35,281 nt of DNA from Limisphaerales bacterium (GTDB taxonomy: Bacteria > Verrucomicrobiota > Verrucomicrobiia > Limisphaerales > UBA11358), in contig PMOA01000015.1 in the NCBI GenBank assembly GCA_003161635.1, forward strand, positions 1-35,281, in the 5' to 3' direction. Position 1 is the stretch's first letter. Each line of letters starts with the position of its first letter. Below the pieces are notes generated by a model. It was not told the DNA's origin. It did not search any database and saw only the letters and a list, made by a program, of their open reading frames with translations. Shown here one piece after another: positions 7,806 to 26,224 of this stretch. A program made the position numbers and the translations under genes.

Positions 7806-7817
7806 GGCTAAATTCAG

Positions 7818-8918
7818 TTACATGCTTACCCCGCAACGCCACATTTTGACTTGGTGAGCATATTTCTGGCGCAATTCTGGTGATTTGTTGAAGGCTTCCT
7901 CCATCAAATCCGCCGCTTCAGCAAGTCGTCCCGTTTGCCTCGCCTTGAACGCTTTTTGCGCCAAGTCCTTTGCAATTCCTTCGTCTGCTGGTGACGGCAT
8001 ACCCAACACAGACTTTGATGGCTCGCTCGTCAGTGTTTTTGGCTTTGGTGCTGAATCGTGAATCGCTGGCTTCCAATTTTCCAATGCGCTCAAAAGTTCC
8101 TTGGCTGTCGGGTAGCGGCTGTCCGCTTGCTTTTCCATCGTCTTCATCACGATGGAATCCAGCGCGTGATTCACGTCGGGATTCGTTTCGGATGGCGGCG
8201 ACACTGGCTTGTCGAACAGATTCTTGCTCCCCCAACTGACATTCGCTGGCATCTCAAACGGCAGCCGGTCCGTCAGCAGGAGGTAAAGCGTAGCTCCAAT
8301 GGCCCAAACATCGGCAGCGCACGAATCGCCTTTGCGTTCAGCGAAAGCCTCCGGCGGTTTGAAGGCAAGAGTGCCAGCAGCGGTCGCCAGCAACGTGAGC
8401 GGGTTCACCTTTTTCGCCAGACCGAAATCGCTGACACGCGCCCGCAATCCGTCCGCCTCATAACCCACGAGAATGTTCTGCGGCTTGATGTCGCGGTGAA
8501 TGATGGGCGGTTTCTCTCGATGCGCCTGCGTGATTCCCCGGCAGACCTGCTTGACCAGATCAATTGCCGTCTCGATGGGAACAAACTGCCCGCCGTGAGA
8601 ACGCCAGAACTTATCGAGACTGCCACCGGGCACATGCTCCATAGTGAAATATCCACAAGTGCCGTGCGGTGTTTCAAAGATATTTGCGTCGGAAACGCTG
8701 ATGATGTTCGGATGTTTGAGGTGTGTAAGCAGGATTGCCTCGCCGAGCATGTCCTGAATCTCGTCGAGATTCATACCGACACGTTTGAAAACTTTCATGG
8801 CCTGCCGGCCAAGAAAGCGATGCTTGACGCGATAAACCTCCGCGAACGCTCCTTCGCCCAAGAAGCGTTCCACTTCGTACGTATCGCGAATCATCTGGCC
8901 GTCTTCGAGCAAGCGCAT
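7818..8918 (-). CDS. Hanks-type Ser/Thr protein kinase, first gene of the chaperone operon
   Basis: 366 residues from the ATG at 8918. An upstream GTG at 8966 would lie almost at the predicted transcription start, so I prefer the ATG. The catalytic elements are all present: GEGAFAEV loop (21-28), Lys42 in AMKVF, HRDIKPQN (141-148), DFG (164-166), and FKPPE in place of APE. The kinase domain fills residues 14-275. The tail has a proline/lysine linker and a TPR-like helix pair (KAFKARQTGRLAEAADLMEE) but no membrane helix, so it should be soluble. It heads an operon of Hsp70-type components, suggesting phosphorylation controls or is controlled by the chaperone set. Substrates are unknown. Confidence 0.9.
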   Translation of the reverse strand: MRLLEDGQMIRDTYEVERFLGEGAFAEVYRVKHRFLGRQAMKVFKRVGMNLDEIQDMLGEAILLTHLKHPNIISVSDANIFETPHGTCGYFTMEHVPGGSLDKFWRSHGGQFVPIETAIDLVKQVCRGITQAHREKPPIIHRDIKPQNILVGYEADGLRARVSDFGLAKKVNPLTLLATAAGTLAFKPPEAFAERKGDSCAADVWAIGATLYLLLTDRLPFEMPANVSWGSKNLFDKPVSPPSETNPDVNHALDSIVMKTMEKQADSRYPTAKELLSALENWKPAIHDSAPKPKTLTSEPSKSVLGMPSPADEGIAKDLAQKAFKARQTGRLAEAADLMEEAFNKSPELRQKYAHQVKMWRCGVSM

Positions 8919-8967
8919 AAAGAGGAAAATATTTAATGAAACAATACGCTTACAACAAATGTTCACA

Positions 8968-8997
8968 ATTCTAAATGATATTATGAAAATAAATCAA
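8968..8997 (-). promoter_or_regulatory. Promoter of the kinase-chaperone operon
   Basis: On the minus strand, TTGATT (8992-8997), an 18-base spacer and TAGAAT (8968-8973) form a good sigma-70-type promoter. The predicted start of transcription is near 8961, giving a leader of about 43 bases to the ATG at 8918. The -35 overlaps the T-tract of the upstream terminator, so this operon appears to be an independent unit. No Shine-Dalgarno sequence precedes the ATG. Confidence 0.6.
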
Positions 8998-9029
8998 AAA
9001 AAACAGCCTCCTTCATAAGAAAGAGGCCG
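8996..9029 (-). terminator. Rho-independent terminator after the primase-region operon
   Basis: The minus-strand RNA forms an approximately 11-bp stem (CGGCCTCTTTC / GAAGGAGGCTG with G-U pairs) around a TTAT loop, followed by eight T residues. It lies six bases past the stop of the 95-residue protein gene and insulates the kinase operon from the replication genes. Confidence 0.9.
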
Positions 9030-9034
9030 TGTGA

Positions 9035-9322
9035 TCAATAATCTTTCGGCAGCAAAACCGTTGTTGCTGAACGATCCGCTTCCGTGATGATCCAGAATTT
9101 CGTGCCGTTGGCGGCAAGATATGCGGAGAGCAATCGCGTGCCGTGAACCAGAGCCTGGTCGTTGGCCTGACGGTCTTCCGCGCAAACATCGCCCCAATCG
9201 CCGGCCTGATGCCGCTGAATCCCAAGAAGAATGTCCTCTTGGGTCAGATGCGCCAGCGCGTTGGGTGTAGACACGATGTGGCCGATTCGGAATCGGGCGA
9301 TAGGGAAGGATTGCGTGCTCAT
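9035..9322 (-). CDS. Small conserved protein of mobile elements (ITEADRSATTVLLPxDY type)
   Basis: 95 residues with the conserved blocks HQAGDWGDVCAEDRQAND and ITEADRSATTVLLPKDY. This is a widespread small family in plasmids and integrative elements of many phyla, usually in gene strings with primases and DUF6166 proteins. No enzymatic motif is visible and the function is unknown. Its start overlaps the end of the preceding gene by 4 bases (ATGA), and a strong terminator follows. Confidence 0.85.
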   Translation of the reverse strand: MSTQSFPIARFRIGHIVSTPNALAHLTQEDILLGIQRHQAGDWGDVCAEDRQANDQALVHGTRLLSAYLAANGTKFWIITEADRSATTVLLPKDY

Positions 9323-9648
9323 AAGCCGTAGTCCTCCATTGTGGCCGCAATTCCGTCTTCATCGTCGCCTAGAATTTCGACGATGCCGGCCTTTAATGCC
9401 GCCTTGTCAGGGTCTGGCTTGGCGTCTTTCGGACAGGCCGGACAACGCACCACGTTGATGACGCTGGCGCCGAATTCATATCCGGCCGCCTTGAACTTCT
9501 CGCGATACCGCTGCGAGAGTCGTAACTGCGGAGACAATTCCCGCCATGCCTCGGCTTCGGCCTGGTCGAGGTCAGTCTCGAATATGGCGTCGTGCCGCAG
9601 ATGATAGACATCCCACGGCTCGCCGCACGATGAACAGTGAACGTCCAT
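9319..9648 (-). CDS. Small zinc-ribbon-like protein
   Basis: 109 residues. A CSSCG pair near the N-terminus and a CPAC pair near residue 70 form a possible four-cysteine zinc site. Between them is a helical region (WRELSPQLRLSQRYREKF). The end is acidic (DDEDGIAATMEDYGL). It lies in the same operon as its neighbours: it starts 5 bases after the 106-residue protein gene and overlaps the next gene. I recall similar proteins in element gene strings, function unknown. Metal binding is inference from the cysteines. Confidence 0.75.
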   Translation of the reverse strand: MDVHCSSCGEPWDVYHLRHDAIFETDLDQAEAEAWRELSPQLRLSQRYREKFKAAGYEFGASVINVVRCPACPKDAKPDPDKAALKAGIVEILGDDEDGIAATMEDYGL

Positions 9649-9653
9649 AATGT

Positions 9654-9974
9654 TTACTCCGGTTGAATGGTTTCTGCCTTGGCGAGAACGGACTCGCAGA
9701 ATTCAAACTGCGACCGGGAAAGCTCCGATCTCGCGCGCTTCTGGTCTTCCAAAAGCAACTTGAGAGCGTTGACTGCCTCCGGCAGCAGGTTGGCTGCGTG
9801 ACAGGCATAACGCGCGTCTCGTGCTGAGTCGATGCGCCCGAAACAGACCTCCTTTGAGGGGTCATGCTTCCGCCGGCCAAGAATTCTGACCGTCGGAATG
9901 ACCTTGTCGTTGTCTGCCTCCATAGAACGCCATGGCAACGGAGTGATTTGTAACAAAAGGTCACTCAGTTTCAT
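9654..9974 (-). CDS. Hypothetical protein, 106 residues
   Basis: The protein begins with LLLQITPLPWRS. It has a middle section with ARDARYACHAANLLPEAVNA and a helical, charged end. The block PLPW... followed by DARYACHAAN resembles small phage/plasmid proteins of unknown function with the pattern NDAAYIVHACNAYPELV. No catalytic motif is seen. It overlaps the DUF6166 gene by 14 bases, consistent with one operon. Confidence 0.65.
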   Translation of the reverse strand: MKLSDLLLQITPLPWRSMEADNDKVIPTVRILGRRKHDPSKEVCFGRIDSARDARYACHAANLLPEAVNALKLLLEDQKRARSELSRSQFEFCESVLAKAETIQPE

Positions 9975-10329
9975 TGGTACCTTTCACACAGCGGGTGTGT
10001 CCGCACGGAGTTGACGTTGAAGGATTGGAGGAAGACTTCAGAGTCGCGACGGCTTGCCGAATCTCCTGATCCGTAAGTGTCCAACCGCGCTTTGGCAGCT
10101 TCGCCACCACCTCCCATTTGAAGTCATGATGAAGCTCAACGGCCCGTTGGTCGTCACCGAAGTGATCGGCCAACAGTGCCAGTGCCAATTGCGCCGGGCC
10201 GCTGCCGCCATAGCCCCATTCAAATCCGGTCGGACTGTGATTCCACAAGTCGAGCCGGGGATTGAGCGGACGGCCATTGACGGAAACGTCTGCGGCATAA
10301 CCTTCACGGCTGCCTTCGTAACGCTTCAC
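9961..10329 (-). CDS. DUF6166-type protein
   Basis: 122 residues. The block PRLDLWNHSPTGFEWGYGGS followed by GPAQLALALLADHFGDD and YHDFKWEVVA-like residues matches the DUF6166 family: small proteins common on plasmids, integrative elements and phages, and of unknown function. The last 20 residues are low complexity and rich in Ser, Thr and Cys. It overlaps the primase gene stop by 4 bases, so the two are probably translationally coupled. Confidence 0.85.
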   Translation of the reverse strand: MKRYEGSREGYAADVSVNGRPLNPRLDLWNHSPTGFEWGYGGSGPAQLALALLADHFGDDQRAVELHHDFKWEVVAKLPKRGWTLTDQEIRQAVATLKSSSNPSTSTPCGHTRCVKGTNETE

Positions 10330-11357
10330 GGCGCACCTCCAATCAGGTCTTGCACCTCCTCGAAGGAAAGGTGTTCCGGCTGCGTGCCGGGTTCCTCGAA
10401 TAGATGGATTTTGACGAAGCAGAATTTGGCAAGTCGGCCTGCGATTTCATCACGCGCTGCCTGTCCCGCCTCGTCTTCGTCGAGCATGACGATGACGTGA
10501 CTGTTGCTGTCGGTGTGTTTCCGAATCAACCCCTCCTGCGCGGGCGACAGGGAACTGCCCATGAGGGCAATCACTTTGCGCCAGCCGTGCTGGTGGAGCA
10601 TCATGCAATCGAAGAAGCCTTCGACGATGACCAACGGTTTGCCCGCCGGTTCCTTGATGGCACGATCCAAGTTGAATAATTCCTGCCCCTTCCGAAAGCC
10701 GGTGGGGAGTTTGTATTTCGGCGTGCCCTCGGGCGGGTCACCCGGCCAGCGACCGGCGTAGGCCACGACTTCACCTTTGACGTTGTGAATCGGGATGACG
10801 ACGTGGCCAACCATCAATCCCTTGTCGCCGGTGAAATAGCCAAGACCGAAATCAATGACGGTTTCCTGGCTGATGCCGCGTTCCGCAAAATACGGATGCG
10901 CGCGATCTAATTTCTCCAGCTTGAATTTCAAGGGTGGATTGGGCGTGTTGTCCTCCGACTTGGGTGCCGGTGCCGATTTGGGCTTGGCGGCGGGTGTCGG
11001 GGAAGTATGTTCTTCCGATTCCGGCGCTGAATGCCCGTTGGTTTTAACGTCCTCCAGCGGGATATTGAACCATTCACAGGCTTTAATGGCCGCGTCGTGA
11101 ATGGACACATCCTCTTTTTTGGCGATGAAGTCCAGGACGTTGCCGCCATGCTTGCATTCGCTGAAGCAATTCCAGATGTTTTTTTCGGTATCAACCCGGA
11201 ATTGCGTGGGGTTGCTGCCGCCGTGAATCGGGCAAGGCCCGCTCAAGCGGGTGCCGATGCGTTTGAAGGTGTCGAGAACACCGTAGTGTTGCAGGACGTT
11301 TTCCATGGTGATTCGGGAACGAATTTCCCGAAAATCTACGAACGGTTTTTTAGGCAT
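10326..11357 (-). CDS. DNA primase, CHC2 zinc finger plus Toprim
   Basis: 343 residues from the ATG at 11357, which is preceded by AAAGGAG; a longer reading to 11423 lacks support. The CHC2-type zinc finger has Cys42, His45, Cys64 and Cys68. A Pro/Lys-rich linker (110-142) leads to the RNA-polymerase-like part, and the Toprim core has VEGFFD (245-250) and DEDEAG (293-298). The DnaB-binding or helicase C-terminus of full-length DnaG is missing, as is usual for primases of plasmids and integrative elements. It would prime replication of the element after excision. It heads the operon that runs to the terminator near 9000. Confidence 0.93.
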   Translation of the reverse strand: MPKKPFVDFREIRSRITMENVLQHYGVLDTFKRIGTRLSGPCPIHGGSNPTQFRVDTEKNIWNCFSECKHGGNVLDFIAKKEDVSIHDAAIKACEWFNIPLEDVKTNGHSAPESEEHTSPTPAAKPKSAPAPKSEDNTPNPPLKFKLEKLDRAHPYFAERGISQETVIDFGLGYFTGDKGLMVGHVVIPIHNVKGEVVAYAGRWPGDPPEGTPKYKLPTGFRKGQELFNLDRAIKEPAGKPLVIVEGFFDCMMLHQHGWRKVIALMGSSLSPAQEGLIRKHTDSNSHVIVMLDEDEAGQAARDEIAGRLAKFCFVKIHLFEEPGTQPEHLSFEEVQDLIGGAP

Positions 11358-11365
11358 AGGATGAC

Positions 11366-11380
11366 TCCTTTCAATGTGCT
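11366..11380 (-). repeat. 15-bp leader block, copy 2, containing the primase ribosome binding site
   Basis: This is identical to 138-152 (AGCACATTGAAAGGA on the minus strand). Here it is followed by GTCATCCT and the primase ATG. The shared segment points to common regulation of the primase and the left-edge gene, or to a duplicated leader. Confidence 0.6.
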
Positions 11381-11421
11381 GTTTCAGGGGAACAAAACCG
11401 GGGAATCCGGCTTCTGGTCGC

Positions 11422-11430
11422 ACCCTAGCA
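11422..11430 (-). promoter_or_regulatory. Extended -10 of the primase operon
   Basis: The minus strand reads CGTGCTAGGGTGC, with TAGGGT at 11422-11427 and an upstream TG. The same block precedes the left-edge gene (TAGGAT) and the initiator gene (TATAAT). The -35 region is only a T-rich stretch. The predicted leader is about 58 bases. Confidence 0.4.
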
Positions 11431-11481: not shown

Positions 11482-12366
11482 TTATGTCAAAGTTGCGGTC
11501 TTTTCAGGTCGGCAGGTCTGCCACGGGATCGTGAGGATGTTCCCGTGCTTCGCAAGTGACGCTGCGTCTAAAAACAGAAACAGGCCATGTCCGTGCGCCA
11601 AGCCCTGACACACTTCTATTATTCCTTGAACCCGTTGTTTGTTGGTGGTGACGGTCAGCACGCGAAACCGCTGCCAGCCGAACCGGGTGCGGTGAAGGTT
11701 TTGCGACCAAGTCGCTTCGTAGGCGAGCAGTTTTCGCTGGAAACTGGTCTGGTCAAGATTGCCGCGTGTCATGGGCATGGTGTCACGGTCGGCTTCAAGG
11801 AAATACCAACATTGTTTGCCGTTGAATTCCAAACCAAATACCCGGTCGGGAATGACCCCGCATTTCTGCCGCTGGCCGATGTCCACCTTCCATTGAAACG
11901 GTTCGCGCCTGTTCGGGATTTGCAAATCGTCCGCCGACAGCAACCGGATGTCTTTCCGGTCCCGGCACGCCAGTTCAAGAGCAACCATAATATCGGAAAC
12001 CAACAAGGCGTGCTCAAGGAACAATCTGCCGACGTAGCTTTTCTGCTGCCAATCAAGCTGATGGAATTGCAGAGACAACTCGCGTTTCAACCAGGCTGCG
12101 CCTTTGTTGCCCAAACCGTAGGCGATCCGTCGTGAACCGCTTTGGTAATAATCAATCTGGCACCATGGTCGTTCCAAGAAACCATGATGAAAAAGCCGCT
12201 GCAACCGCCGCAACACCTGCTGCCGGCTGCCGTCGCTTAACGCGACAATGTGGTCGGAACGAAGAAATCGGTGGCGCTGGAGGCATTTCAAAATCTCACC
12301 GTCACGGCTGGTCAACCTTAGCGGTGGAATGTCTGGCGAGCGTTTGAAACGGGGAAGTCGAGGCAC
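11482..12366 (-). CDS. Replication-relaxation family protein (Replic_Relax)
   Basis: 294 residues. The N-terminal winged helix is visible: LTSRDGEILKCLQRHRFLRS followed by DHIVALSDGSRQQVLRRLQR and a LFHHGFLERP wing. The middle has the family signature HALLVSDIMVALELA. The end contains PDRVFGLEFNGKQCWYFLEAD, which resembles the catalytic-looking core of Replic_Relax proteins. Members are found on plasmids and integrative elements beside T4CP-type ATPases and are thought to act in DNA processing or conjugation. Here it lies between the primase and an XRE regulator on the same strand. It could stand in for a relaxase accessory, but no histidine-triad relaxase is seen. Confidence 0.8.
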   Translation of the reverse strand: MPRLPRFKRSPDIPPLRLTSRDGEILKCLQRHRFLRSDHIVALSDGSRQQVLRRLQRLFHHGFLERPWCQIDYYQSGSRRIAYGLGNKGAAWLKRELSLQFHQLDWQQKSYVGRLFLEHALLVSDIMVALELACRDRKDIRLLSADDLQIPNRREPFQWKVDIGQRQKCGVIPDRVFGLEFNGKQCWYFLEADRDTMPMTRGNLDQTSFQRKLLAYEATWSQNLHRTRFGWQRFRVLTVTTNKQRVQGIIEVCQGLAHGHGLFLFLDAASLAKHGNILTIPWQTCRPEKTATLT

Positions 12367-12971: not shown

Positions 12972-13424
12972 ATGGAACTTTGGGGCTGGTTTGCGAACAA
13001 TTCATTCAATCTTTTAAGCACCGCCGGTGTCATCGGCAGCTTGTGGTTCACGGCCATATCACTACGTTCGGAAACCAAGACCCGGCGGATTGCCAATCTG
13101 CTTGCCATCACTGCCAGCCACCGGGAAGTCTGGAAAGTTTTTCTCAACGACAAAGGATTGGCGCGGGTGCGTGACGCATCGGCGGACACGACCAAGCAGC
13201 CGGTTACCGCCGCCGAGCGGGTGTTCGTCATTTTCGTCATTTTTCATATGAGCAGCGTATTTTATGCAATGAGCAATCAACTGGTCGTCAAGGTGGAAGG
13301 CTTGCGCCGGGACATCGCGCAATTCTTTTCGCTGCCGATTCCTCGCGACGTATGGGAAAAAGTCAAAGTCCTCCAGAATGACGATTTCGTGGCGTTTGTG
13401 GAATCCTGTCGGAACTGGAAATAG
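12972..13424 (+). CDS. Small membrane-anchored protein of unknown function
   Basis: 150 residues. An N-terminal hydrophobic segment (NLLSTAGVIGSLWFTAISL) is followed by the conserved-looking block RSETKTRRIANLLAITASHR and EVWKVF. A second hydrophobic stretch is VFVIFVIFHMSSVFYAM. Such proteins (RIANLL.IT..HR.IW) recur as hypothetical membrane proteins in many genomes. The last 62 bases overlap, tail to tail, the coding end of the T4CP-like ATPase gene on the other strand, so the two mRNAs could pair. The role is unknown; membrane location next to a T4CP-like ATPase may be relevant. Confidence 0.8.
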   Translation: MELWGWFANNSFNLLSTAGVIGSLWFTAISLRSETKTRRIANLLAITASHREVWKVFLNDKGLARVRDASADTTKQPVTAAERVFVIFVIFHMSSVFYAMSNQLVVKVEGLRRDIAQFFSLPIPRDVWEKVKVLQNDDFVAFVESCRNWK

Positions 13425-14685
13425 CCAATTTGCTCAATTTGGATTCAACCCACTTTCGCGCCGTGGCAAATTTTTGGCGCGAGTTGGCGATGTGGGCAAC
13501 CGCCCGGCCAATGCTGTTGTCCAACGGTTGCAGCGTTGTCCCTTTGAACGGCTCTTTGTTCGTGCCATCTTCCAAAATCTTGCTGAGCACATTGAACCGT
13601 TCCAAATCCACGAACTGCTGTGCGATGAACGCATTGGCAAATTCCTTCTGCAACACCTCGGCGTCCGTGTTGCCGATACGGAATGAAAACAGCGTGCCGA
13701 CGTTGCCGAACACCGCCTGCCGGACGGGCAGCGGAATCTGGTCAACGTATTGATGCGAAAGCGTCAGGCACAATCGGTATTTGCGCGCCTCGGCCAGAAT
13801 CGCCGCAAAACTGTCCGTGGTGAAATTCTGGAATTCATCAATGAACAGGTAAAAATCCCGGCGTTCGTCCTCCGGCTGGTTGGCACGCCGCATGGCTGCC
13901 AGTTGAAATTGTGTCACCAATAGCGAGCCGAGCAGGTTCGCCTTGTCATGGCCGATTTTGCCTTTGGACAGATTGGCGATGAACAGCCGCTGGTTGTCCA
14001 TGATGAAAGGGAAGCTCACCTTGCATTTGACCTGGCCAAGAATGTTCCGAATGACGGGATTCAACAAAAACTGGCCGAGTTTGTTTTGAATGGGTGCGAT
14101 GGCCTCACGCCGGAACCGCTCGTCGTAGCTGGCGAATTCATGTTCCCAAAATTCCTTGATGAACGGGTCTCTGATTTGCCGGATCACCCGTGCCCGGTAT
14201 TTGTCGTCAGTCAACATCCGGTTCACGCCCAGCAGGGAAGTGTTCTGGCAATCGAGCAGGGCGGCGATGGCGTTGTATAAAATGTATTCCATTCTCGGCC
14301 CCCATGAATCCGGCCAGATGCTCTTGAACGCACCGACAATGCCGGACGCAACCAGATGTCTTTCATCCTTCGGCACGTTCGCCAGCAAATTCAGCGCAAC
14401 GGGGAATTCCAAATCGGACGGATTGAAATAAACCAGGTGGTCGGTGCGCCAGCGGGGGATGTGGCTCAACAATTCCTCGGCCAAGTCACCGTGCGGGTCA
14501 ATCAAACCGACGCCATGCCCCAGCGCGATGTGCTGCAAAATCATGTTCCGCAACAGCGTCGTTTTTCCCGAACCCGTCTTGCCGATGACATAAACGTGCT
14601 GGCGTAAATCCGGCAGGGAAATCCCGAAGGGAACTGTTTTTCCCCAAATTTCGTGTGTGCCGATCAAAATAGATTCGTCATTCAT
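13363..14685 (-). CDS. VirD4/HerA-like DNA-translocation ATPase, soluble form
   Basis: 440 residues from the ATG at 14685. Walker A is GKTGSGKT (35-42), followed by the family block LIDPHGDLAEELL (61-73). Walker B is FYLFIDEF (278-285), followed by an LAEARKYRLCLTLSHQYVDQ segment typical of TraD/TraG/VirD4 coupling proteins and HerA-type pumps. The N-terminal membrane domain of a classical coupling protein is absent; upstream in-frame codons lack homology and a ribosome binding site. It could pump DNA during conjugation, with a separate membrane partner, or package or segregate DNA. No relaxase, VirB4 or other T4SS gene is in view. Confidence 0.85.
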   Translation of the reverse strand: MNDESILIGTHEIWGKTVPFGISLPDLRQHVYVIGKTGSGKTTLLRNMILQHIALGHGVGLIDPHGDLAEELLSHIPRWRTDHLVYFNPSDLEFPVALNLLANVPKDERHLVASGIVGAFKSIWPDSWGPRMEYILYNAIAALLDCQNTSLLGVNRMLTDDKYRARVIRQIRDPFIKEFWEHEFASYDERFRREAIAPIQNKLGQFLLNPVIRNILGQVKCKVSFPFIMDNQRLFIANLSKGKIGHDKANLLGSLLVTQFQLAAMRRANQPEDERRDFYLFIDEFQNFTTDSFAAILAEARKYRLCLTLSHQYVDQIPLPVRQAVFGNVGTLFSFRIGNTDAEVLQKEFANAFIAQQFVDLERFNVLSKILEDGTNKEPFKGTTLQPLDNSIGRAVAHIANSRQKFATARKWVESKLSKLAISSSDRIPQTPRNRHSGGL

Positions 14686-15054
14686 GATTGCAGATTCAGC
14701 CGCCACTCCCGGCCATTTAATAGTTCCCCGGTTGTGGTAGGAACCATTGACAGGTGAAACGCCGCACCAGCGCGAAGGCATTTCAATGGCTGTGATGAAA
14801 CCATTGGCAAACGCTGTTGGGTGCGAGCCAACGGGGTAATGGCGGCTGAGTCCGAAACCCGACGAATTCCATTGTAGCACGATGCCAGCGATGCTGGCCA
14901 TAAGGTCGCGCTGCGCGCGTCGTAGTGAATGCCGCAATAGGCGGCGGCGCTTTTTCCGACAATCGGAGGTTTCGTCCTGAAAACTCGTCCCTTCGCACGA
15001 TTTGCGAAGTCGTCCTGAAGTCGTGTGTCCAATCGGACATATTTTGAACCCGTC

Positions 15055-16220: not shown

Positions 16221-16286
16221 CGGCTTACCTCCAGATGTCGGCGGGCTTACTTCTTGAAGTAAACCTGCTTACCTCTGGCGGTATTA
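16221..16286 (-). repeat. Three 22-bp iteron-like direct repeats
   Basis: The plus strand has three units of exactly 22 bp (16221, 16243, 16265). Each starts with CC/CG-(G/T)GCTTAC(C/T)TC; GCTTAC begins at 16223, 16245 and 16267. A period of two helical turns is typical of iterons bound by plasmid initiators. The repeats cover the end of the initiator gene, giving its tail the reading PPEVSRFTSRSKPADIWR, so the DNA repeat probably dictates the protein sequence. Confidence 0.6.
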
Positions 16287-16629
16287 TCCCCAGCCGCTTC
16301 ACCTGAAAATGGATGGTGTAAAGGTTCGTTTTTCCCTGTCCCCGGCGCTGGATGGTCACCAGACCGGCCTCCTCCAATCCGGCGATCAACTGGGTGACAC
16401 GCGGCCGGGTCATGCCCATGTCCTCCGCCAGCCGGTCCTGCCCCGGAAAACACGAATCGTTGTGCCAGGCGTAGCTCAAAAACATGGCGTAAGCGACTTT
16501 TGCGCCCACGGAAATGTTCGGGTCTTTCAGGATGAAATTCGGGACCTGGGTAAAGCCGCCTTGCAACACGGGATTAGTCGTGTCCAATTGCAGATTCTTC
16601 TCTTTGAGGACTTCCCCGATTGTTTTCAT
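16225..16629 (-). CDS. Winged-helix replication initiator-like protein
   Basis: 134 residues. After a short leader comes FTQVPNFILKDPNISVGAKV, then a typical initiator/phage-replication winged helix: LSYAWHNDSCFPGQDRLAED, MGMTRPRVTQLIAGLEEAGL and a wing with IQRRGQGKTNLYTIHF. It is shorter than full Rep proteins and lacks an ATPase or nicking domain, so it would act as a DNA-binding initiator. The last 20 codons consist of 22-bp iteron-like repeats. An extended -10 lies 10 bases before its ATG, giving an almost leaderless message. A DnaA box and the divergent MerR-like gene lie just beyond. Rep function is inferred from fold and context. Confidence 0.75.
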   Translation of the reverse strand: MKTIGEVLKEKNLQLDTTNPVLQGGFTQVPNFILKDPNISVGAKVAYAMFLSYAWHNDSCFPGQDRLAEDMGMTRPRVTQLIAGLEEAGLVTIQRRGQGKTNLYTIHFQVKRLGIIPPEVSRFTSRSKPADIWR

Positions 16630-16639
16630 GTGTGGTATG

Positions 16640-16648
16640 ATTATAGCA
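16640..16648 (-). promoter_or_regulatory. Extended -10 promoter of the initiator gene
   Basis: The minus strand reads CGTGCTATAATC: a consensus TATAAT (16640-16645) with an upstream TG. It is the best match of the three CGTGCTA promoters in this window. Transcription would begin only about 3-5 bases before the ATG at 16629. There is no clear -35; the DnaA box lies about 22 bp upstream, so DnaA could affect this promoter. Confidence 0.6.
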
Positions 16649-16667
16649 CGAGGCCGGAAAATCCATC

Positions 16668-16676
16668 TGTGGATAA
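16668..16676. other. DnaA box
   Basis: TTATCCACA (minus strand) is a perfect match to the high-affinity DnaA box. It sits in the 70-bp gap between the divergent initiator and MerR-like genes. One perfect 9-mer is expected by chance roughly once in 130 kb counting both strands, so its presence here is suggestive. Confidence 0.6.
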
Positions 16677-16699
16677 ATTAGACTCCCCTCGCAACTTTC

Positions 16700-17341
16700 A
16701 TGGAACAAAACCCGCAAAACAAGACCGGAAATATTCCGCAGCATTCCGTAAATTTCGGAAACGTGCAGAACGATTCCGAAGAATTCCGCACCGTTCGGAA
16801 TGATGCGGAAGGTTTCCGAACCATTCCGCATGTTTCGGAACGCAACCAAAACCACACTTTGACGGTGCGTGAAGTGGCACGGATGTTTGAAGCGGCGGGC
16901 GTTGCCCGGACTGAAAGGAGCATCGTGAACTGGTGCCAGCCAAATCGGACGGGCATCGCCCGGCTGGATTCCTATTTCGATCCAAACGAGCGGCGTTATT
17001 ACATTTCGCCGCAAAGTGTGGAACAGGCAATAGCGGAAGAAAAAGCCAAAGCCACTAAAAACAAAGATTCTTCGGAACCATTCGGAAATGTTCCGCCAAC
17101 TGCGGAAACAGCTAAAAAAACCAAACCGGTTTTGGAAGACGATAAAGTACACTTCCGGGAATTGGAGCGGGAAAATTTAGATTTGAAAATTGCGAATCGG
17201 GGAAAGGATTATCTAATTGAGCAAATGCAAAACGAGCGGAACGGCTTTTTTGACCAACTCCTGTCTGCCAACCGAAAGATGGGTGAGTTGGAAGCCAAGT
17301 TGCTTCAAATCGAATCCCCAGCGCGTTCACGAATTGATTGA
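16700..17341 (+). CDS. MerR-like helix-turn-helix protein with repeat-encoded N-terminus and coiled coil
   Basis: 213 residues. Residues 8-47 are four degenerate 10-residue repeats (NIPQHSVNFG, NVQNDSEEFR, TVRNDAEGFR, TIPHVSERNQ) produced by a 10-bp DNA array. Residues 50-105 form a MerR/excisionase-type domain: LTVREVARMFEAAGVARTER, SIVNWCQPNRTG, and a FDPNERRYYISPQSVEQAI wing. A second small array (17073-17107) codes for SEPFGNVPPTAET. Residues 145-208 are a coiled coil (LERENLDLKIAN, then LIEQMQNERNGFF). DNA binding plus a coiled coil, divergent from an initiator, suggests an adaptor for partition or copy control that binds its own coding DNA. The function is inference; the family recurs in environmental genomes. 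Confidence 0.75.
   Translation: MEQNPQNKTGNIPQHSVNFGNVQNDSEEFRTVRNDAEGFRTIPHVSERNQNHTLTVREVARMFEAAGVARTERSIVNWCQPNRTGIARLDSYFDPNERRYYISPQSVEQAIAEEKAKATKNKDSSEPFGNVPPTAETAKKTKPVLEDDKVHFRELERENLDLKIANRGKDYLIEQMQNERNGFFDQLLSANRKMGELEAKLLQIESPARSRID
16721..16840. repeat. Twelve-unit phase-locked 10-bp array of TTCCG/CGGAA
   Basis: Each 10-bp block from 16721 to 16840 holds one pentamer: CGGAA ends at x0, or TTCCG spans x4-x8. The order is R F F R R F F R R F F R (F=TTCCG, R=CGGAA; one R is CAGAA at 16766). Spacings are therefore fixed: F-F 10, R-R 10, R-F 8, F-R 12. All sites face the same side of the helix. A period of 10, not a multiple of 3, inside a gene shows selection on DNA, consistent with a cooperative protein-binding array. 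Confidence 0.85.
17073..17107. repeat. Second short TTCCG/CGGAA cluster
   Basis: CGGAA at 17073, CGGAA at 17083, TTCCG at 17091 and CGGAA at 17103 follow the same spacing rule as the main array (R-R 10, R-F 8, F-R 12). It lies 230 bp downstream in the same gene, so a protein could bridge the two clusters. Confidence 0.7.
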
Positions 17342-17673: not shown

Positions 17674-17970
17674 ATGGCGAAAAAGGCTGCTGCGAAAGAA
17701 ACCATTGCCGCTCCACGACCGAAACCCTCCGCGCTTGTGGACACGCGCGTGATTTATTGCGGCGACAATCTGGAACAACTCAAGAAACTGCCCGACGCCT
17801 GCGTTGACCTCATTTACATAGACCCGCCCTTCAATTCCAATCGCAACTACGAAGTCTTCTGGGGCGAGACCAAGGAGAAGCGCGCGTTTGATGACCGCCC
17901 CGAATCCACCCGCGCCTTGACGGTGAAGGATATTCTGGACGAAGCGAAGTTGGGAATGAAGCTGGCGTGA
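17674..17970 (+). pseudogene. Remnant of an adenine-specific DNA methyltransferase
   Basis: 98 residues. After a Lys/Ala-rich start comes VIYCGDNLEQLKKLPDACVD followed by LIYIDPPFNSNRNYEVFWGE, the DPPF catalytic motif region of type III-like and related beta-class methyltransferases. These normally have 400-600 residues. The homology stops after KRAFDDR. The last 18 residues (LTVKDILDEAKLGMKLA) look like the far end of a restriction or methylation gene, suggesting an internal deletion. No SAM-binding motif (FxGxG) remains, so it is almost certainly inactive. Confidence 0.8.
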
Positions 17971-19747: not shown

Positions 19748-20743
19748 ATGCTTGAAACATTTCCGCTTTTGATGTTTCATAAATTCATGTCAGTGAAATG
19801 CGAACCAACTGTTCCACAATTGGAGTTGGCAGTCCGACACCAAAACGGCACGATTTATCCAGTTGATTCTGCCGGCGGCGTTCAACTTCAATACGAAAAT
19901 CGGTTGGGTAAGCTTTTTTTCGGAGATTCGCTTGCTTGGTTGAAGGGCTTAAAATCAGAAACGGTTGACCTCGTTTTTGCCGACCCGCCTTACAACATAA
20001 AAAAAGCAGATTGGGACAATTTCGAGAGCCATGAACATTATGTTGCGTGGTCGCGCGACTGGCTGGAGCAAGCCGCCCGGGTTTTGAAAAAAAACGGAAC
20101 ATTGTATGTATGCGGGTTTTCGGAAATTTTGGCGGATGTGAAGGTTGCCGCGATGCCTTTATTCAAAAGCTGCCGTTGGATCATCTGGCACTATAAGAAC
20201 AAGGCCAACCTTGGTGGCGACTGGGGGCGTTCGCATGAAAGCATCGTTCATTTTCGCAAAAGCAATGATTTCACGTTTAACATTGATGAGATACGCATTC
20301 CTTACGGCGCGCACACGCTGAAATACCCCAGCCATCCACAGGCTGAAACCAGCAACTTTGGCAAGAACGGGAACGGTAAGCACCGGGACAATTGGATTCC
20401 GAATCCGAAGGGCGCAAAGCCCAAGGACGTGATAGACATTCCGACCACCTGCAATGGCATGCGCGAAAAAACTCCGCATCCCACGCAAAAGCCGGAAGAA
20501 CTGCTGCGCAAGCTGGTGCTGGCCTCGTCAAACCCGGGAGATTTGGTGGCGGATCCGTTCTCCGGGTCAGGCACAACCTCGGTTGTAGCTGAGCAGCTTG
20601 GTCGCCGCTGGCTTGCCTGTGATTGCTACCAACAGTATAACGAATGGGCCATCGAACGTCTGGATTTTGTGGTTCGACGTTCCAAGGCGGATTGGATCAG
20701 GTTCGACGCTGAAACCGCGCAGCGAAGGGAGAGCATACGATGA
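19748..20743 (+). CDS. Type II DNA methyltransferase, beta class (N6A or N4C)
   Basis: 331 residues (a later ATG at 19787 is also possible). The catalytic motif VFADPPYN (DPPY at 79-82) comes before the SAM-binding motif DPFSGSGTT (269-277). This is beta-class order, with a target-recognition region between them (about 150-245). The HPTQKPEELL block typical of M.MboII-like N6-adenine enzymes is present just before motif I. It would protect element and host DNA against the partner endonuclease. Its stop overlaps the endonuclease start (ATGA), so the pair is coupled. The recognition site cannot be read from sequence. Confidence 0.92.
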   Translation: MLETFPLLMFHKFMSVKCEPTVPQLELAVRHQNGTIYPVDSAGGVQLQYENRLGKLFFGDSLAWLKGLKSETVDLVFADPPYNIKKADWDNFESHEHYVAWSRDWLEQAARVLKKNGTLYVCGFSEILADVKVAAMPLFKSCRWIIWHYKNKANLGGDWGRSHESIVHFRKSNDFTFNIDEIRIPYGAHTLKYPSHPQAETSNFGKNGNGKHRDNWIPNPKGAKPKDVIDIPTTCNGMREKTPHPTQKPEELLRKLVLASSNPGDLVADPFSGSGTTSVVAEQLGRRWLACDCYQQYNEWAIERLDFVVRRSKADWIRFDAETAQRRESIR

Positions 20744-22697: not shown

Positions 22698-23618
22698 ATG
22701 AATCCCTTACGAAAAGTTTTCAAGGAACTGGCTAAAGCACTTAAGAAAAAACGTGGACGAAGATTAACAAGGAAAGCATCGCTCAAGGCAAATCGGTACT
22801 ATTGGTTGGGTATTTTGCGTCTTCAGGAAGATGCTATCAATCTTACCTCGCGCTTGACTGAGGGATTGCCCAACATTCGCAGATTATGCCTGAATTTTCT
22901 TGCGGAAAGAGTACTACAGGGTGCGCTGCATGCTAACTTTTTACACCGAGAATATCCATATTCGTCGCACGCTGATTTAGCTGGGATCAATCGTGGTATA
23001 ATAGAAGCCTCAGTCAACTATCTGTTTTTGTTAGATGATCCTTCGTGCGAGCGTACCGCCGCGTTCTGGGCAAAAAGCGGATTCGAAGAATCCTTGCGTA
23101 ATGACGGCCTTAAGAAATGGATTGACCACAATGATCAATTTATCAAGTACTTGGCTCGGTGTGACTACAGCCCAACGTTGATGTCATTCGAACAGATGCT
23201 TCAAGGGGTCGCCACATATACAGGAGTCACAAGTCCAAATCGAAAGGCGTGGCCGAAGTTTAAGCAGAGATGTAGTGCAGTAGGTGCAATTTGGGAGCTT
23301 GTTTATGATATGGAATACAAGGCGCTTTCGACGTGGCAGCATGGCGATTTATCGAGAGTAATAATCTCACCGTCATTCGCACGCATCGATCCAGAACAAG
23401 AAGATCGAAACGTTTTTGAAAGTCTTATAATGGTACAATGGGCATTTACTCTGAACTACATCTTTGTTCGAGAACTTGCAATTCGCTGCAAAGATACTGC
23501 TAGAGCCGACACAATAGATCAAATGTTTTGGGGCGTTCTCGGCAGTGCAAGTATGATTGTAAAGGAGCACGCCCAACGTTTTCAGCCTGATAAACATATA
23601 CGAAATCGGACATGCTAA
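22698..23618 (+). CDS. DUF5677-like helical protein
   Basis: 306 residues, predicted all helical after a very basic start (KKKRGRRLTRK). The helix IIEASVNYLFLLDD and the later YKALSTWQHGDLS block resemble DUF5677 proteins (R..lEa.....yL..., Y...S...H), a HEPN-related family of unknown function often found near defence genes. No membrane helix. It is the last plus-strand cargo gene before the recombinase and is convergent with it (36-base gap). The assignment rests on two short motifs and is moderate. Confidence 0.5.
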   Translation: MNPLRKVFKELAKALKKKRGRRLTRKASLKANRYYWLGILRLQEDAINLTSRLTEGLPNIRRLCLNFLAERVLQGALHANFLHREYPYSSHADLAGINRGIIEASVNYLFLLDDPSCERTAAFWAKSGFEESLRNDGLKKWIDHNDQFIKYLARCDYSPTLMSFEQMLQGVATYTGVTSPNRKAWPKFKQRCSAVGAIWELVYDMEYKALSTWQHGDLSRVIISPSFARIDPEQEDRNVFESLIMVQWAFTLNYIFVRELAIRCKDTARADTIDQMFWGVLGSASMIVKEHAQRFQPDKHIRNRTC

Positions 23619-23654
23619 AGCTTCCGCGTTCGATTCCGACCCTCGCCTCCAAAC

Positions 23655-24686
23655 CTATGCGGGAAACTGCACCGCATCGCGCCATTGCACCACGTCCTCG
23701 ACTTTCTCCCGCTGGTAAATTTGATGAATCAAATCAGACGAATGATTCACCAGCCGCATCGCCGCTTCACGCGGCACACCGGCGCGGCGCAGACGGTTGA
23801 CGTAGGTAACGCGCAGGCAGTGAAAACACAAATGCGGCTTTTTGACCTTGATAAAGAATTGTTGCCACCGGCGCGACGGTTGAAACGGAAACTCGACCGT
23901 GAATTTCTGTTTGGCTTTGCGGATGCGTTGAAACAACGGGCGCAACGCGGACGGCATCGGAACGGAGAACGCCCGATCTTCGCCGCCTTTGGGCGAAGGA
24001 AACGTGATTTTATTTTCCACAAAATCAATGCAGTTGAGCGGCAGCCGCGTTTCCCGCAACCGGCAGCCAGTGTGCAGGGAAATGTCAAACGCGGTTTGCA
24101 TCCATTCCGGTTCGGTTTTCAACGCTTCCCGGATTTCGCTGATTTCAGCGTCAGCCAGTTCCGGCTTTTTCGCCGTCTTGTCCTTCCGCAGCTTGAGGCT
24201 CACCAGCGGGTTTGCATCAGCATGGCCGAGTCGAACCGCTTCGCCCATGATCATGGCAAAAGTCTTCAGTTCAAAAATGGCCGTGTTACGCCCGACGCTT
24301 TTCCCGCTTTTCTTTTTATAGGATGTGCGCCATTCAATGTATTCGAGCGCATTGCGATAGGTAATAGCGCGTGGCGAGTGCAACCGCTGGATTTGCAGCC
24401 AAAGTGCCAGCCATTTCCAAGCGTCAGTATAACGCTCCAATGTGCGCGGGCTTTCACAATGCCGTTCCAGAAATTTCGGAATCCAAGTGTCCCAACCTTC
24501 GCTATTGACCACCGGCACGCGATGATGTTCCTTTGCTTCCAGTTCGGCGCGCAGGGCTTTAGCTTTGGCGGTGTCATTCGGGCTGTCGGCACGGAGGCCG
24601 GTGGATCGGTGAAGCTCTTTCCGGTTGCCGTCAAAAAAGACGACATACCAGAACGGCGAACGAGCTTTGCGGTATAAATAAGCCAT
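23655..24686 (-). CDS. Tyrosine recombinase (integrase) of the element
   Basis: 343 residues. The N-terminus (MAYLYRKARSPFWYVVFFDG) is a typical arm-binding start. The SAM-like core domain spans about 65-165. Catalytic residues are visible: TGCRLRE with Arg209, HCLRVTYVNRL with His289 and Arg292, NHSS with His315, and Tyr324 in HQIYQR. It would cut and join DNA at the attachment site. Its start lies 95 bp from a tRNA-Gly 3' end, and tandem 9-bp repeats touch its start region. Orientation (away from the tRNA fragment, into the element) is standard. It appears intact. Confidence 0.95.
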   Translation of the reverse strand: MAYLYRKARSPFWYVVFFDGNRKELHRSTGLRADSPNDTAKAKALRAELEAKEHHRVPVVNSEGWDTWIPKFLERHCESPRTLERYTDAWKWLALWLQIQRLHSPRAITYRNALEYIEWRTSYKKKSGKSVGRNTAIFELKTFAMIMGEAVRLGHADANPLVSLKLRKDKTAKKPELADAEISEIREALKTEPEWMQTAFDISLHTGCRLRETRLPLNCIDFVENKITFPSPKGGEDRAFSVPMPSALRPLFQRIRKAKQKFTVEFPFQPSRRWQQFFIKVKKPHLCFHCLRVTYVNRLRRAGVPREAAMRLVNHSSDLIHQIYQREKVEDVVQWRDAVQFPA

Positions 24687-24690
24687 ACCT

Positions 24691-24708
24691 AGTGCAAGTA
24701 GTGCAAGT
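24691..24708. repeat. Tandem 9-bp repeat at the recombinase start
   Basis: AGTGCAAGT occurs twice head to tail, beginning 5 bases upstream of the recombinase ATG. Such short direct repeats beside integrase genes are commonly arm-type sites for the integrase or an excisionase, or autoregulatory operators. Here the position would block translation or transcription of the recombinase. Confidence 0.5.
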
Positions 24709-24780
24709 AACTATACGAAAACCAATTCAATTTGTCCAGCAAATTCAATATGTTACGCCACCATAAACCACTATGCCAGA

Positions 24781-24811
24781 GATGAGGGTTCGATTCCCTT
24801 CACCCGCTCCA
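24781..24811 (+). other. Attachment site: 3' end of a tRNA-Gly gene
   Basis: GAGGG-TTCGATT-CCCTT folds as a T-arm (24784-24800). CACCCGC is the 3' acceptor strand (24801-24807), followed by discriminator T and CCA. Acceptor type GCGGGTG with discriminator U plus CCA is that of tRNA-Gly. No D-arm or anticodon arm with correct spacing lies upstream, so this is a displaced 3' fragment, as left by an integrase that uses the tRNA 3' end. The intact tRNA and the other att copy should lie beyond the left edge of the window. Confidence 0.8.
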
Positions 24812-25040
24812 ACCTTGATTTCAACCAATGAAATCAAGCTTTTTAAAAAGTTTGCTCAATAAACTAATTGATAATAAAGGATATTATTACATCAAGTCGA
24901 AAATCACTAATATTATCAATGCTTTCATAAACAATTGACCACACAAAATACCTCATAGTGCTAGCGAAAGTGCTAGCGCATTCAATGTTATCACTTGCGT
25001 TTAAGCACGTTCAAACTTGTCAAAAACGAATCTATAAACA
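24812..25040. other. AT-rich spacer outside the element with a short direct repeat
   Basis: No gene is seen. AGTGCTAGCG occurs at 24957-24966 and 24969-24978; because GCTAGC is its own complement, the pair can also form a 6-bp hairpin. It is two copies only, so it is not an array. The rest is A/T-rich with no clear signal. Confidence 0.45.
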
Positions 25041-25199
25041 ATGAAATTTTCCCTGCTCTCTTGGCTCATCAGCCTCCTCGACTTTTTCACCAACCTCATC
25101 AGATCCAAGCCAAAATCAGAAACTGGCCGTGGTTTGATGGGCATGTATTTTGTCGAGAGTAACGCTAAGAGGAATAAAATGAATCGAGAGCGGCAGTGA
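25041..25199 (+). CDS. Possible 52-residue single-span membrane protein
   Basis: The ATG at 25041 reads MKFSLLSWLISLLDFFTNLI, a hydrophobic amphipathic segment, then a basic tail to a TGA at 25197. No ribosome binding site is seen and no family is recognised. It lies just outside the attachment site. It could be a small membrane peptide or chance. Confidence 0.35.
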   Translation: MKFSLLSWLISLLDFFTNLIRSKPKSETGRGLMGMYFVESNAKRNKMNRERQ

Positions 25200-25239
25200 G
25201 GTGGGGTTTACACCAAACTCTGAACTTTGGACTTCAAAA

Positions 25240-25593
25240 TCACCAAGACGCCAAGGACAACCAAATCCATCCGGCGATCAAACTGACACCACCAACCGGT
25301 GTGATGGCGCCCAGCCAATGCATATTCGTCACCGCCAGCAGGTACAACGAACCGGAAAAAATCACGATCCCCGAGAAAAAGCACCACCAAGGTCCGGCCT
25401 TCAGCGGCTGGCGTTGCGCCAATACGAACAACATCACAGTATGAATGGAATGGTAGAGAACCGCCTTGTCCCAGATCGCCGCCGTTCCATTTTGCGCCAG
25501 CAATTCCTTCAGTCCATGCGCGCCAAAGGCGCCGAGTGTCACCGCCAGCGCACCTAACGCCGCCGCTATCCGGGTTGCCGTCGTGTTGCTCAT
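25240..25593 (-). CDS. DUF423 family inner-membrane protein
   Basis: 117 residues from the ATG at 25593; an upstream frame has no homology and crosses the HU terminator. Four hydrophobic helices are visible. The family hallmark is ALGALAVTLGAFGAHGLKEL near the start, followed by WDKAVLYHSIHTVMLFVLA and a SGSLYLLAVT segment, as in YgdD/YwdK. Function is unknown across bacteria. It is a chromosomal gene, downstream of HU and separated from it by a terminator. Confidence 0.92.
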   Translation of the reverse strand: MSNTTATRIAAALGALAVTLGAFGAHGLKELLAQNGTAAIWDKAVLYHSIHTVMLFVLAQRQPLKAGPWWCFFSGIVIFSGSLYLLAVTNMHWLGAITPVGGVSLIAGWIWLSLASW

Positions 25594-25648
25594 GTGCCCC
25601 AAACTAGACGAAGGCCCCGTGTCTTTCGAGAGGCAAAATGGCTGCGCT

Positions 25649-25682
25649 ATAAAAAAAGGCACCCTGACTAAACAGAGTGCCT
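25649..25682 (-). terminator. Rho-independent terminator of the HU gene
   Basis: The minus-strand RNA reads AGGCACTCTGTTTAGTCAGG and closes with GTGCCT. It forms AGGCAC/GTGCCT plus CTG/CAG pairs around a short loop and is followed by seven to eight T. It sits 18 bases after the HU stop. Confidence 0.92.
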
Positions 25683-25700
25683 GGAAAATGAGAGCCAATT

Positions 25701-25988
25701 TTACTTCGTACCGAGAATGGCGTCCTTGGCAGCTTTGGCTACGCGGAACTTTACGACACGCTTGGCTTTAATCTGGATCGTTTCGCCAGTAGCCGGGTTG
25801 CGTCCGATGCGAGCCTTGCGATCAACCAGCACCAGCTTGCCGAGACCGGGCAGGGTGAAGGTGTTTTTGGCGTTCTTGTAAGCCAACTCCGCGATGAATT
25901 CGAGAATCTCCACCGCCGCCTTCTTGGTGATGTTGCTCTTGGTTGCGAGTTCAGTTGCTATTTCAGATTTGCTCAGGGCTTTGGCCAT
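25701..25988 (-). CDS. HU-family DNA-binding protein
   Basis: 95 residues. MAKALSKSEIATELATKSNI starts the helical dimer domain. The beta-arm region is clear: FTLPGLGKLVLVDRKARIGR, NPATGETIQIKAKRVVKFRV, and a final basic helix AKAAKDAI. Length and layout are normal for HU/IHF nucleoid proteins, which bend DNA and could also assist integrase reactions of the neighbouring element (inference). It is monocistronic, with its own terminator. Confidence 0.96.
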   Translation of the reverse strand: MAKALSKSEIATELATKSNITKKAAVEILEFIAELAYKNAKNTFTLPGLGKLVLVDRKARIGRNPATGETIQIKAKRVVKFRVAKAAKDAILGTK

Positions 25989-26034
25989 AATTCAGTCAGT
26001 TCGTTTTGTTTGTTAATTGTTGTTGAGCGGTGGA

Positions 26035-26199
26035 TTAAAGCTGTTCAGGAACCCCTTGCCAAGATAAAACCGCGTCTTTATTAAAGATTGTGCGATTTTC
26101 GGCCGGTGAGTTAACCGTGTATTTTGAGGCCAGTGCAGGGTCCTGAATCACCAATAAATTCTCGGCGTTTTTTTGTTCGGCCGCTTGACAGAACCGGAA
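26035..26199 (-). pseudogene. C-terminal remnant of a phospholipase-D-like nuclease
   Basis: The minus-strand frame reads CFRFCQAAEQKNAENLLVIQ followed by DPALASKY, matching the end of small secreted PLD-type nucleases (GSFNFTKAAEEKNAENLLVI.D..LA..Y). The GSxNF motif is degraded to SCFRF. The N-terminal end of what appears to be the same kind of gene lies at 28795-28884, on the same strand, beyond the helicase gene. It is a remnant, not a gene. Confidence 0.65.
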
Positions 26200-26224
26200 A
26201 CAGGACGACGCAGAAGGCCGGAAA

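Follow-up and report, generated by a model that had tools for sequence, protein, structure and literature searches.

An array of short, near-palindromic sites spaced at exactly 10 bp lies within a protein-coding gene of the window, by which we mean the whole stretch of DNA analysed, i.e. an entire contig of 35,281 bases from a 4.3-Mb genome (Table 1). This array is real and recurs outside the contig studied. As in initiator genes with internal origins, the predicted DNA-binding sites are contained in the coding sequence itself, and we lean towards the view that the encoded protein binds the array in its own gene, and does so cooperatively. Judged from the comparisons given below, we infer that protein and array would form a cognate pair.

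Table 1. The array, the gene that contains it, and the surrounding features of the window
Feature	Position	Strand	Basis
Array protein ORF, 213 aa	16700..17341	+	ORF list, AlphaFold2 model, relatives
Array protein, order of parts: low-confidence N-terminus, MerR-like winged helix-turn-helix (modelled), low-confidence linker, putative coiled coil	16700..17341	+	
Main array, 12 blocks in exact 10-bp steps, centres 16727 to 16837	16724..16840	no strand	
Second cluster in linker-coding DNA, centres 17074, 17084, 17094, 17104	17071..17107	no strand	
Winged helix-turn-helix (modelled), residues 50-123	16847..17068 (coding DNA)	+	model and fold search
Putative coiled coil, residues 144-205	17129..17314 (coding DNA)	+	model
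HTH_36 winged-helix protein like phage replication initiators (O-like / DnaD-like)	16225..16629	-	
Divergent intergenic region, initiator-like gene to array gene	16630..16699	no strand	
TraD/VirD4/HerA-like ATPase	13363..14937	-	profile searches
Replic_Relax (replication-relaxation) protein	11482..12366	-	Pfam PF13814, E 7.3e-18
DnaG-like primase	10326..11423	-	Pfam/NCBIfam
Tyrosine recombinase, probable integrase	23655..24686	-	Pfam PF00589, E 6e-9

The array is built from a near-palindrome of 7 bp, TKCSGMA (T[TG]C[CG]G[AC]A). The pattern T[TG]CNG[AC]A is matched by 10 of the 12 blocks of the main array, and half matches (ACCGGAA and TTCCGTA) occupy the other two. A sequence-only reading of this DNA had described the blocks in terms of the pentamers TTCCG (F) and CGGAA (R), with one in each of the 12 blocks and in the order R FF RR FF RR FF R. 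Eleven exact pentamers are indeed present (starting at 16726R, 16734F, 16744F, 16756R, 16774F, 16784F, 16796R, 16806R, 16814F, 16824F and 16836R), but block five (16764-16770, TGCAGAA) holds a one-base variant instead; the order holds here if this variant is counted as R, but it is not conserved in relatives. In the second cluster, whose 7-mers read TTCGGAA, TTCGGAA, TTCCGCC and TGCGGAA, the pentamer spacing of 10, 8 and 12 is borne out by the checked positions (17073R, 17083R, 17091F, 17103R). With the near-palindrome as the unit, the irregular steps of 8 and 12 disappear, since its centres lie exactly 10 bp apart, and in place of an ordered code of F and R there is a near-palindromic TKCSGMA in which one TTC half or both are intact.

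The 10-bp period had also been equated with one helical turn and taken to place all sites on one face of the DNA. The 10-bp step stands, but it measures exactly 10.0 bp, against the 10.5 bp per turn of relaxed B-DNA, so that on relaxed DNA successive sites would drift by about 17 degrees per step and by about half a turn over 11 steps. A shared helical face would thus be expected only locally, or else on overwound DNA or in a superhelical complex. The two-site pattern TKCSGMANNNTKCSGMA occurs seven times in the contig, every time within the array gene, and in 100 dinucleotide shuffles of the contig it appeared with a mean of 0.04 and at most once.

A search with the array protein gave matches in 13 of the 49 genomes of the family, and an alignment lacking the N-terminal array retrieved matches from 34 of the 320 genomes of the order, together with 32 loci in the genome_contigs collection. 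Within a phylum sample of 387 genomes the sole match was the source genome itself (1/387), and no homologue was confirmed in the viral contigs, phages or plasmids searched. The relatives are mostly MAGs labelled Verrucomicrobia, often as subdivision 3 or Limisphaerales; other labels include Methylococcales (L074), Acidobacteriia (L079), Acidobacteriota (L089), KSB1 (L090) and Defluviicoccus (L092), and those of L071 and L077 (Proteobacteria) and of L083 (Akkermansia) are probably wrong. The array is present in 31 of the 32 genome_contigs loci, in L082 as half-sites only; in L093 the N-terminal part of the protein is lost and the array is gone with it. A pattern search further revealed a dense second cluster of the motif on contig C9 of the same genome, which belongs to a paralogue of the array gene (L009:2413-3096, G000:C9) that is 59% identical to the contig protein over residues 7-212 and has its own array of 11 sites. 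The two are separated by a 10-residue (30-bp) insertion in the array, 30 bp being the smallest step that preserves both the reading frame and the 10-bp phase. The paralogue copy looks broken, since the match of its initiator neighbour is confined to residues 1-70. Elsewhere in the source genome (L010:1922-1956, G000:C58), four direct copies of the type TTCCGG(C/T)CTA are spaced at 10 bp.

The number of in-phase sites was compared with two null models, namely a synonymous recoding in which the protein was held fixed and codons were redrawn from the gene's own usage, and, as the strictest null, a shuffle of the array's own synonymous codons only. For the contig array, 9 in-phase sites were counted, and 1000 recoded draws gave 2.01 on average and never more than 6; the own-codon shuffle is less decisive (mean 6.82, with 9 reached in 6.1% of draws). 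Over 33 loci, 276 in-phase sites were counted versus 60.9 expected under synonymous recoding and 141.3 under own-codon shuffling. The observed number was reached in at most 0.5% of recoded draws for 32 of the 33 loci, the exception being L082, and 29 of the 33 remained below 2.5% under own-codon shuffling; the four that were not significant there are the contig array (0.061), L088 (0.063), L090 (0.060) and L082 (0.822). The check proposed with the sequence-only reading, whether homologues retain the peptide without the 10-bp phase, turned out in favour of that reading: even L082, which is devoid of the 7-mer, keeps 12 TTCSG/CSGAA half-site centres in phase, against a maximum of 8 in 5000 null draws.

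The conservation of individual bases points in the same direction. In 26 of the 33 tabulated loci the array keeps one register relative to the winged-helix domain, the last slot lying 19 bp before it. Across 25 non-redundant loci that share this register, the information content at codon position 3 is 1.65-2.00 bits for the four fixed bases of a site and 0.14-0.50 bits for spacer bases. Wobble bases are therefore conserved within sites and free in spacers, which shows that selection acts on the DNA. Among 300 pairs of loci, amino-acid identity in a stretch of 30 residues averages 0.50, and in 0.70 of the slots a perfect site is kept by both partners; frequent amino-acid exchanges at the slots (R/G, P/R, S/A, E/A) keep the DNA site. 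Neighbour distances in the N-terminal array (31 loci, n=247) are 10 bp in 210 cases, 20 bp in 23, 30 bp in 7 and of another length in 7. The linker cluster of the relatives is looser, with 33 of 50 distances being multiples of 10 and the rest including 11, 12, 21 and 33. Two or more in-phase sites occur in the linker of 20 of the 32 loci, versus 0 of 32 in a control stretch from the domain and 1 of 32 in one from the C-terminus, the controls (the first 170 bp of the domain and 190 bp, respectively) being shorter than the 260-bp linker stretch. By these counts the array resides mainly in DNA for low-confidence regions of the protein, which are probably disordered according to the model, and the folded parts are spared.

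The proposition that selection acts on the DNA is thus upheld by the synonymous-codon nulls, by wobble conservation, by the linker counts and by the frame-sorted sites described below. It competes with the idea that a mere protein repeat, of the 10-residue FRxVPxxSE type, has produced periodic DNA. The encoded peptide is in fact a 10-residue pseudo-repeat, and the insertion that separates contig protein and paralogue is exactly one such repeat in length; but the synonymous-codon nulls are exceeded, wobble conservation is limited to the sites, and the amino-acid exchanges listed above leave the DNA site intact. We reject the protein-repeat reading on the strength of the codon nulls and the wobble conservation, and regard it as practically untenable.

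Both outer halves are weakened (TGC...GCA) in only 6 of 268 sites from 30 loci, against 26.4 expected, or 17.7 when the expectation is computed frame by frame. Since doubly weakened sites are thus rarer than expected, a site seems to require at least one intact TTC half. The two orientations are both used, and the reading frame sorts them: a TGC half is found in 0 of 76 cases in frame 0, where it would encode Cys, and in 45 of 97 in frame 2. This sorting of the TGC halves implies that orientation follows the protein code and that the predicted DNA reader seems to accept both orientations, which in turn would argue for recognition of double-stranded DNA. An action at the RNA level, with sites for e.g. 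an RNA-binding protein in the messenger, would agree with the location of the array within a transcribed gene. A protein reading RNA, however, should depend on a single strand, and the array consists of near-palindromes in both orientations and keeps its 10-bp phase; the use of both orientations disfavours this reading, which we consider very improbable.

The AlphaFold2 model of the array protein, built with 31 sequences, has a mean pLDDT of 75.8 and a pTM of 0.39. It contains a helix-turn-helix, a wing and a long helix over residues 50-123 (block means 91-96 over residues 51-120), followed by a single long helix over residues 144-205 (block means 93-98 over residues 151-200), which presumably forms a coiled coil; pLDDT falls below 50 for residues 5-41 and 126-143. 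In a Foldseek search against the PDB, RacA ranked first, as a weak match (E 0.19, probability 0.87), BmrR second and GlnR 27th, with MarR/PadR proteins ranked between the latter two at lower probability; all of these matches are weak (E 0.19 and above). RacA combines a MerR-like domain with a coiled coil, and the protein modelled here is like it in that a coiled coil would be added to a winged helix. No fold match reached E <= 0.001 in the PDB or among viral models, where phage HTH and excisionase-like proteins were the best (E 0.016). Pfam, NCBIfam, PHROGs and PDB sequence searches placed the protein in no family: among Pfam families it matched none, including MerR and HTH_17, and HTH_17 was matched by one of 31 members at E 0.095. 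By PHROG, Pfam or NCBIfam profiles the array gene is not a replication initiator. A MerR-like domain and a coiled coil had been read from the sequence; the model has a winged helix that may be MerR-like, for which the fold match is weak, followed in RacA-like order by a helix predicted to form a coiled coil.

Judged by its predicted neighbours, the array gene is set in a mobile element with replication genes of its own. An ATPase like that of the window lies upstream of the array gene in L063, L065, L069, L077, L083, L084, L085, L087 and L092 and downstream in L090, i.e. in 10 of 32 loci, many of which are short. In L090 (3893-5824, from the KSB1-labelled MAG), the array protein continues in frame into the C-terminal part of a TraD/HerA-like ATPase; the match covers ATPase query residues 145-504 without the Walker A part, and the gene may be either a fusion or a deletion product. 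The ends of the element were not found: a comparison on one strand of 7801-10400 with 23401-26300 yielded no shared 14-mer that could serve as an attachment repeat, and the 35,281-base contig contains no tRNA. Neither ParA nor ParM nor TubZ was present among those contig proteins that were profiled. Downstream of the array gene, a short ORF (17674-17970) resembles by eye the start of a DNA methyltransferase, with a weak Pfam match only, and is followed at 19748-20743 by a full DNA methylase gene.

The gene divergent to the array gene encodes a protein with matches to Pfam HTH_36 (E 3.1e-9) and to phrog_270, 'replication initiation protein' (E 7.2e-16). An initiator-like neighbour, in some cases truncated, is found in 30 of 34 loci (the 32 genome_contigs loci, the contig and the paralogue); it is of the contig type (CL2), of a second type (CL1), of both (L079, L084), or, in L089, of a third kind with weak initiator matches. 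Of the four loci without a counted neighbour, L062 and L073 end too close, L086 has none, and L093 has lost the N-terminal part. The two main initiator types gave 27 matches when 313 genomes of the order were searched, and 25 of these adjoin an array; the two that do not (L209, L211) are truncated. This tight linkage to an initiator-like gene keeps alive a competing explanation, in which the array would provide the iterons of a lambda-O or RepA_N type origin for the divergent protein and the array protein would be an accessory. The neighbours match replication-initiation profiles in the contig-type, the CL1-type and, weakly, the L089-type members, as this explanation requires. It is at odds with it that the three kinds of neighbour go with one and the same motif, and that recognition segments, picked by hand at 14 loci with L089 left out, average 89% identity for the array protein and 30% for the neighbouring initiator (91 pairs). 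The motif is the same throughout these 14 loci despite the variation of the initiator, with only half of it in L082. On balance we judge the iteron explanation rather unlikely.

If the array is instead read by the protein that it helps to encode, the opening ~140 bp of the gene, together with the DNA encoding the linker, would make up an array of many binding sites embedded in coding sequence. The MerR-like domain would read the TTCSG half-site, adjacent protein copies would be separated by roughly one helical turn, and pairing or bridging of copies by the coiled coil would give rise to a filament or a superhelical complex on that gene. The array-encoded peptide would act as a tolerant linker, with the needs of the protein choosing the site variant in each slot. 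With less confidence, we suggest that such a complex may mark an origin-like region through which the extrachromosomal form of the element would be segregated, anchored or controlled in copy number, and that it may also repress its own gene by a block to transcription. Perhaps these functions of the excised element are the purpose of the array, a possibility that we regard as open to considerable doubt, and autorepression would likely be a side effect. Array and gene of the predicted DNA-binding protein overlap; in plasmid centromere systems of the StbA, ParR and TubR type the counterparts overlap or are adjacent.

Several known systems share part of this arrangement. BldC, a MerR-like winged-helix protein, forms a head-to-tail filament on 9-bp direct repeats (PMC5859096), and RdfS likewise forms filaments on DNA (PMC11963761). 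The present case is like BldC, RacA and RdfS in its winged helix, here modelled and possibly MerR-like, and in repeated sites about one turn apart; unlike them, it has no sequence-family match, and its sites are near-palindromic, of mixed orientation, at exactly 10 bp in the main array, and located in its own gene. Replication-start sites inside the coding sequence of their binder are known from the lambda O, pSK41 and pT181 Rep genes (PMC3985674, PMC5703833), and in the pT181 and pSK41 families the peptide encoded at those sites is dispensable for replication (PMC5703833, PMC3985674). The array described here likewise lies within the coding sequence of a predicted DNA-binding protein, and that the lambda ori is located in the O gene (PMC3985674) lends the iteron explanation a precedent. 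The lambda origin has four 19-bp iterons (PMC3985674), in contrast to about ten 7-bp sites at 10 bp here, and the product is no initiator by profile, the initiator-like gene being its neighbour. The small DNA-binding protein StbA of R388 acts with the stbDRs, two sets of five 9-bp repeats with 2-bp spacers, which are needed for the stability of a mobile element with conjugation genes (PMC3098194). It resembles our case as a small DNA-binding protein (here predicted) with a nearby array on a mobile element; unlike the array of the window, the stbDRs surround the operon promoter and lie outside the gene (PMC3098194). In the literature searched, as far as its texts were available, no description was found of a coiled-coil protein of MerR-like type whose own gene contains an array, nor did that literature yield a description of origin or partition regions of uncultured Verrucomicrobiota; none of the papers found in one search contained TTCCGAA, and none of those found in another contained 'Limisphaerales'. 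The array may be useful as a sequence signature for finding such regions in these organisms. It also illustrates how two overlaid codes, 10-bp binding and 3-bp protein coding, can be accommodated by the use of all three frames and a tolerant peptide.

A separate family of phage proteins, to which a motif scan of viral contigs led, shows a comparable layout with a membrane segment and an HTH_17-like domain, where two to five in-phase sites follow directly behind the protein's own HTH. The test covered 13 of its 29 loci, with the remainder either L136 or near-copies by eye; 44 in-phase sites were counted versus 14.8 expected. Nine of the 13 fall below 0.05 on their own; L149 (0.364), L176 (0.242), L151 (0.068) and L150 (0.056) are not significant alone. 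On either side of a replaced segment, two members from environmental phage contigs, L135 (4001-4537) and L136 (4001-4498), are nearly the same, with identity in 296 of 300 columns ahead of it and in 123 of 124 behind it; this segment comprises the HTH and the array together. The exchanged part of L136 holds four CCGCA/TGCGG sites in one 10-bp phase versus 1.44 expected (0.38% of draws), and two more in the shared tail keep the same phase; this motif was chosen with L136 already in view, and the shared tail accounts for two of the six sites. When 10-bp self-match was tested without any motif, the value was 1.3% for the exchanged part alone and 0.02% once the tail was included. A search for relatives of the HTH of L136 returned only itself. 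A profile comparison of the two HTH families was not significant (probability 7%), its alignment falling on the recognition helix.

The joint exchange of HTH and array is what self-reading predicts, with the qualification that it comes from one phage pair in a different protein family. It bears as well on a further alternative, in which the array is read by a protein of the host or by a third one of the element, with both neighbours as bystanders. The near-constancy of the motif in MAGs labelled Acidobacteriia, Acidobacteriota, KSB1, Methylococcales and Defluviicoccus could be accounted for in this way, but the array is linked to one gene family in these loci, and the exchange between L135 and L136 points to the gene's own HTH; we hold a third reader to be improbable. 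The membrane-HTH family also tells against iterons, in that none of 10 profiled neighbours matches an initiator; three match head, tail fibre and endolysin profiles and seven have no match.

Based on these sequence patterns, we tentatively propose that there are self-addressed genes, in which the stretch encoding a helix-turn-helix protein would double as the array of its reader, the whole being inherited, moved and exchanged as a unit, and in which the resulting filament would mark or tether the DNA of the element. At least two architectures may exist, namely the MerR-like coiled-coil protein in integrative elements and the membrane-anchored HTH protein in phages. Self-binding, if true, would make reader and address hard to separate by recombination, and this inseparability would help to explain their intact spread between element types and phages.

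A scan of viral contigs for four-site motifs yielded 37 contigs, among them 14 with F F R R blocks, two of the membrane-HTH family (L094, L125), two whose array lies in a gene that is, or looks like, an initiator (L108, L099) and many others with simple 10-bp tandem repeats. Since the scan is biased to the motif, a motif shared among its contigs is no evidence for a shared reader. The in-gene 10-bp array of L108 (11400-11436) lies in a phage gene that matches replication-initiation profiles, and that of L099 (6262-6308) in a gene that looks like an initiator by eye and has no profile match; these two cases, both found via the motif, are in keeping with the iteron explanation. The F F R R blocks (L109:3695-3731, L113:6678-6714, L119:1476-1512 and 11 similar ones) consist of four TTCCGAA-type sites at 10 bp, and the block in L113 immediately precedes a gene whose CII-like match is weak, in an operator-like position. 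In L105 (2153-2259), eleven copies of TGCGGCA at 10 bp lie between ORFs that resemble terminase and portal genes by eye.
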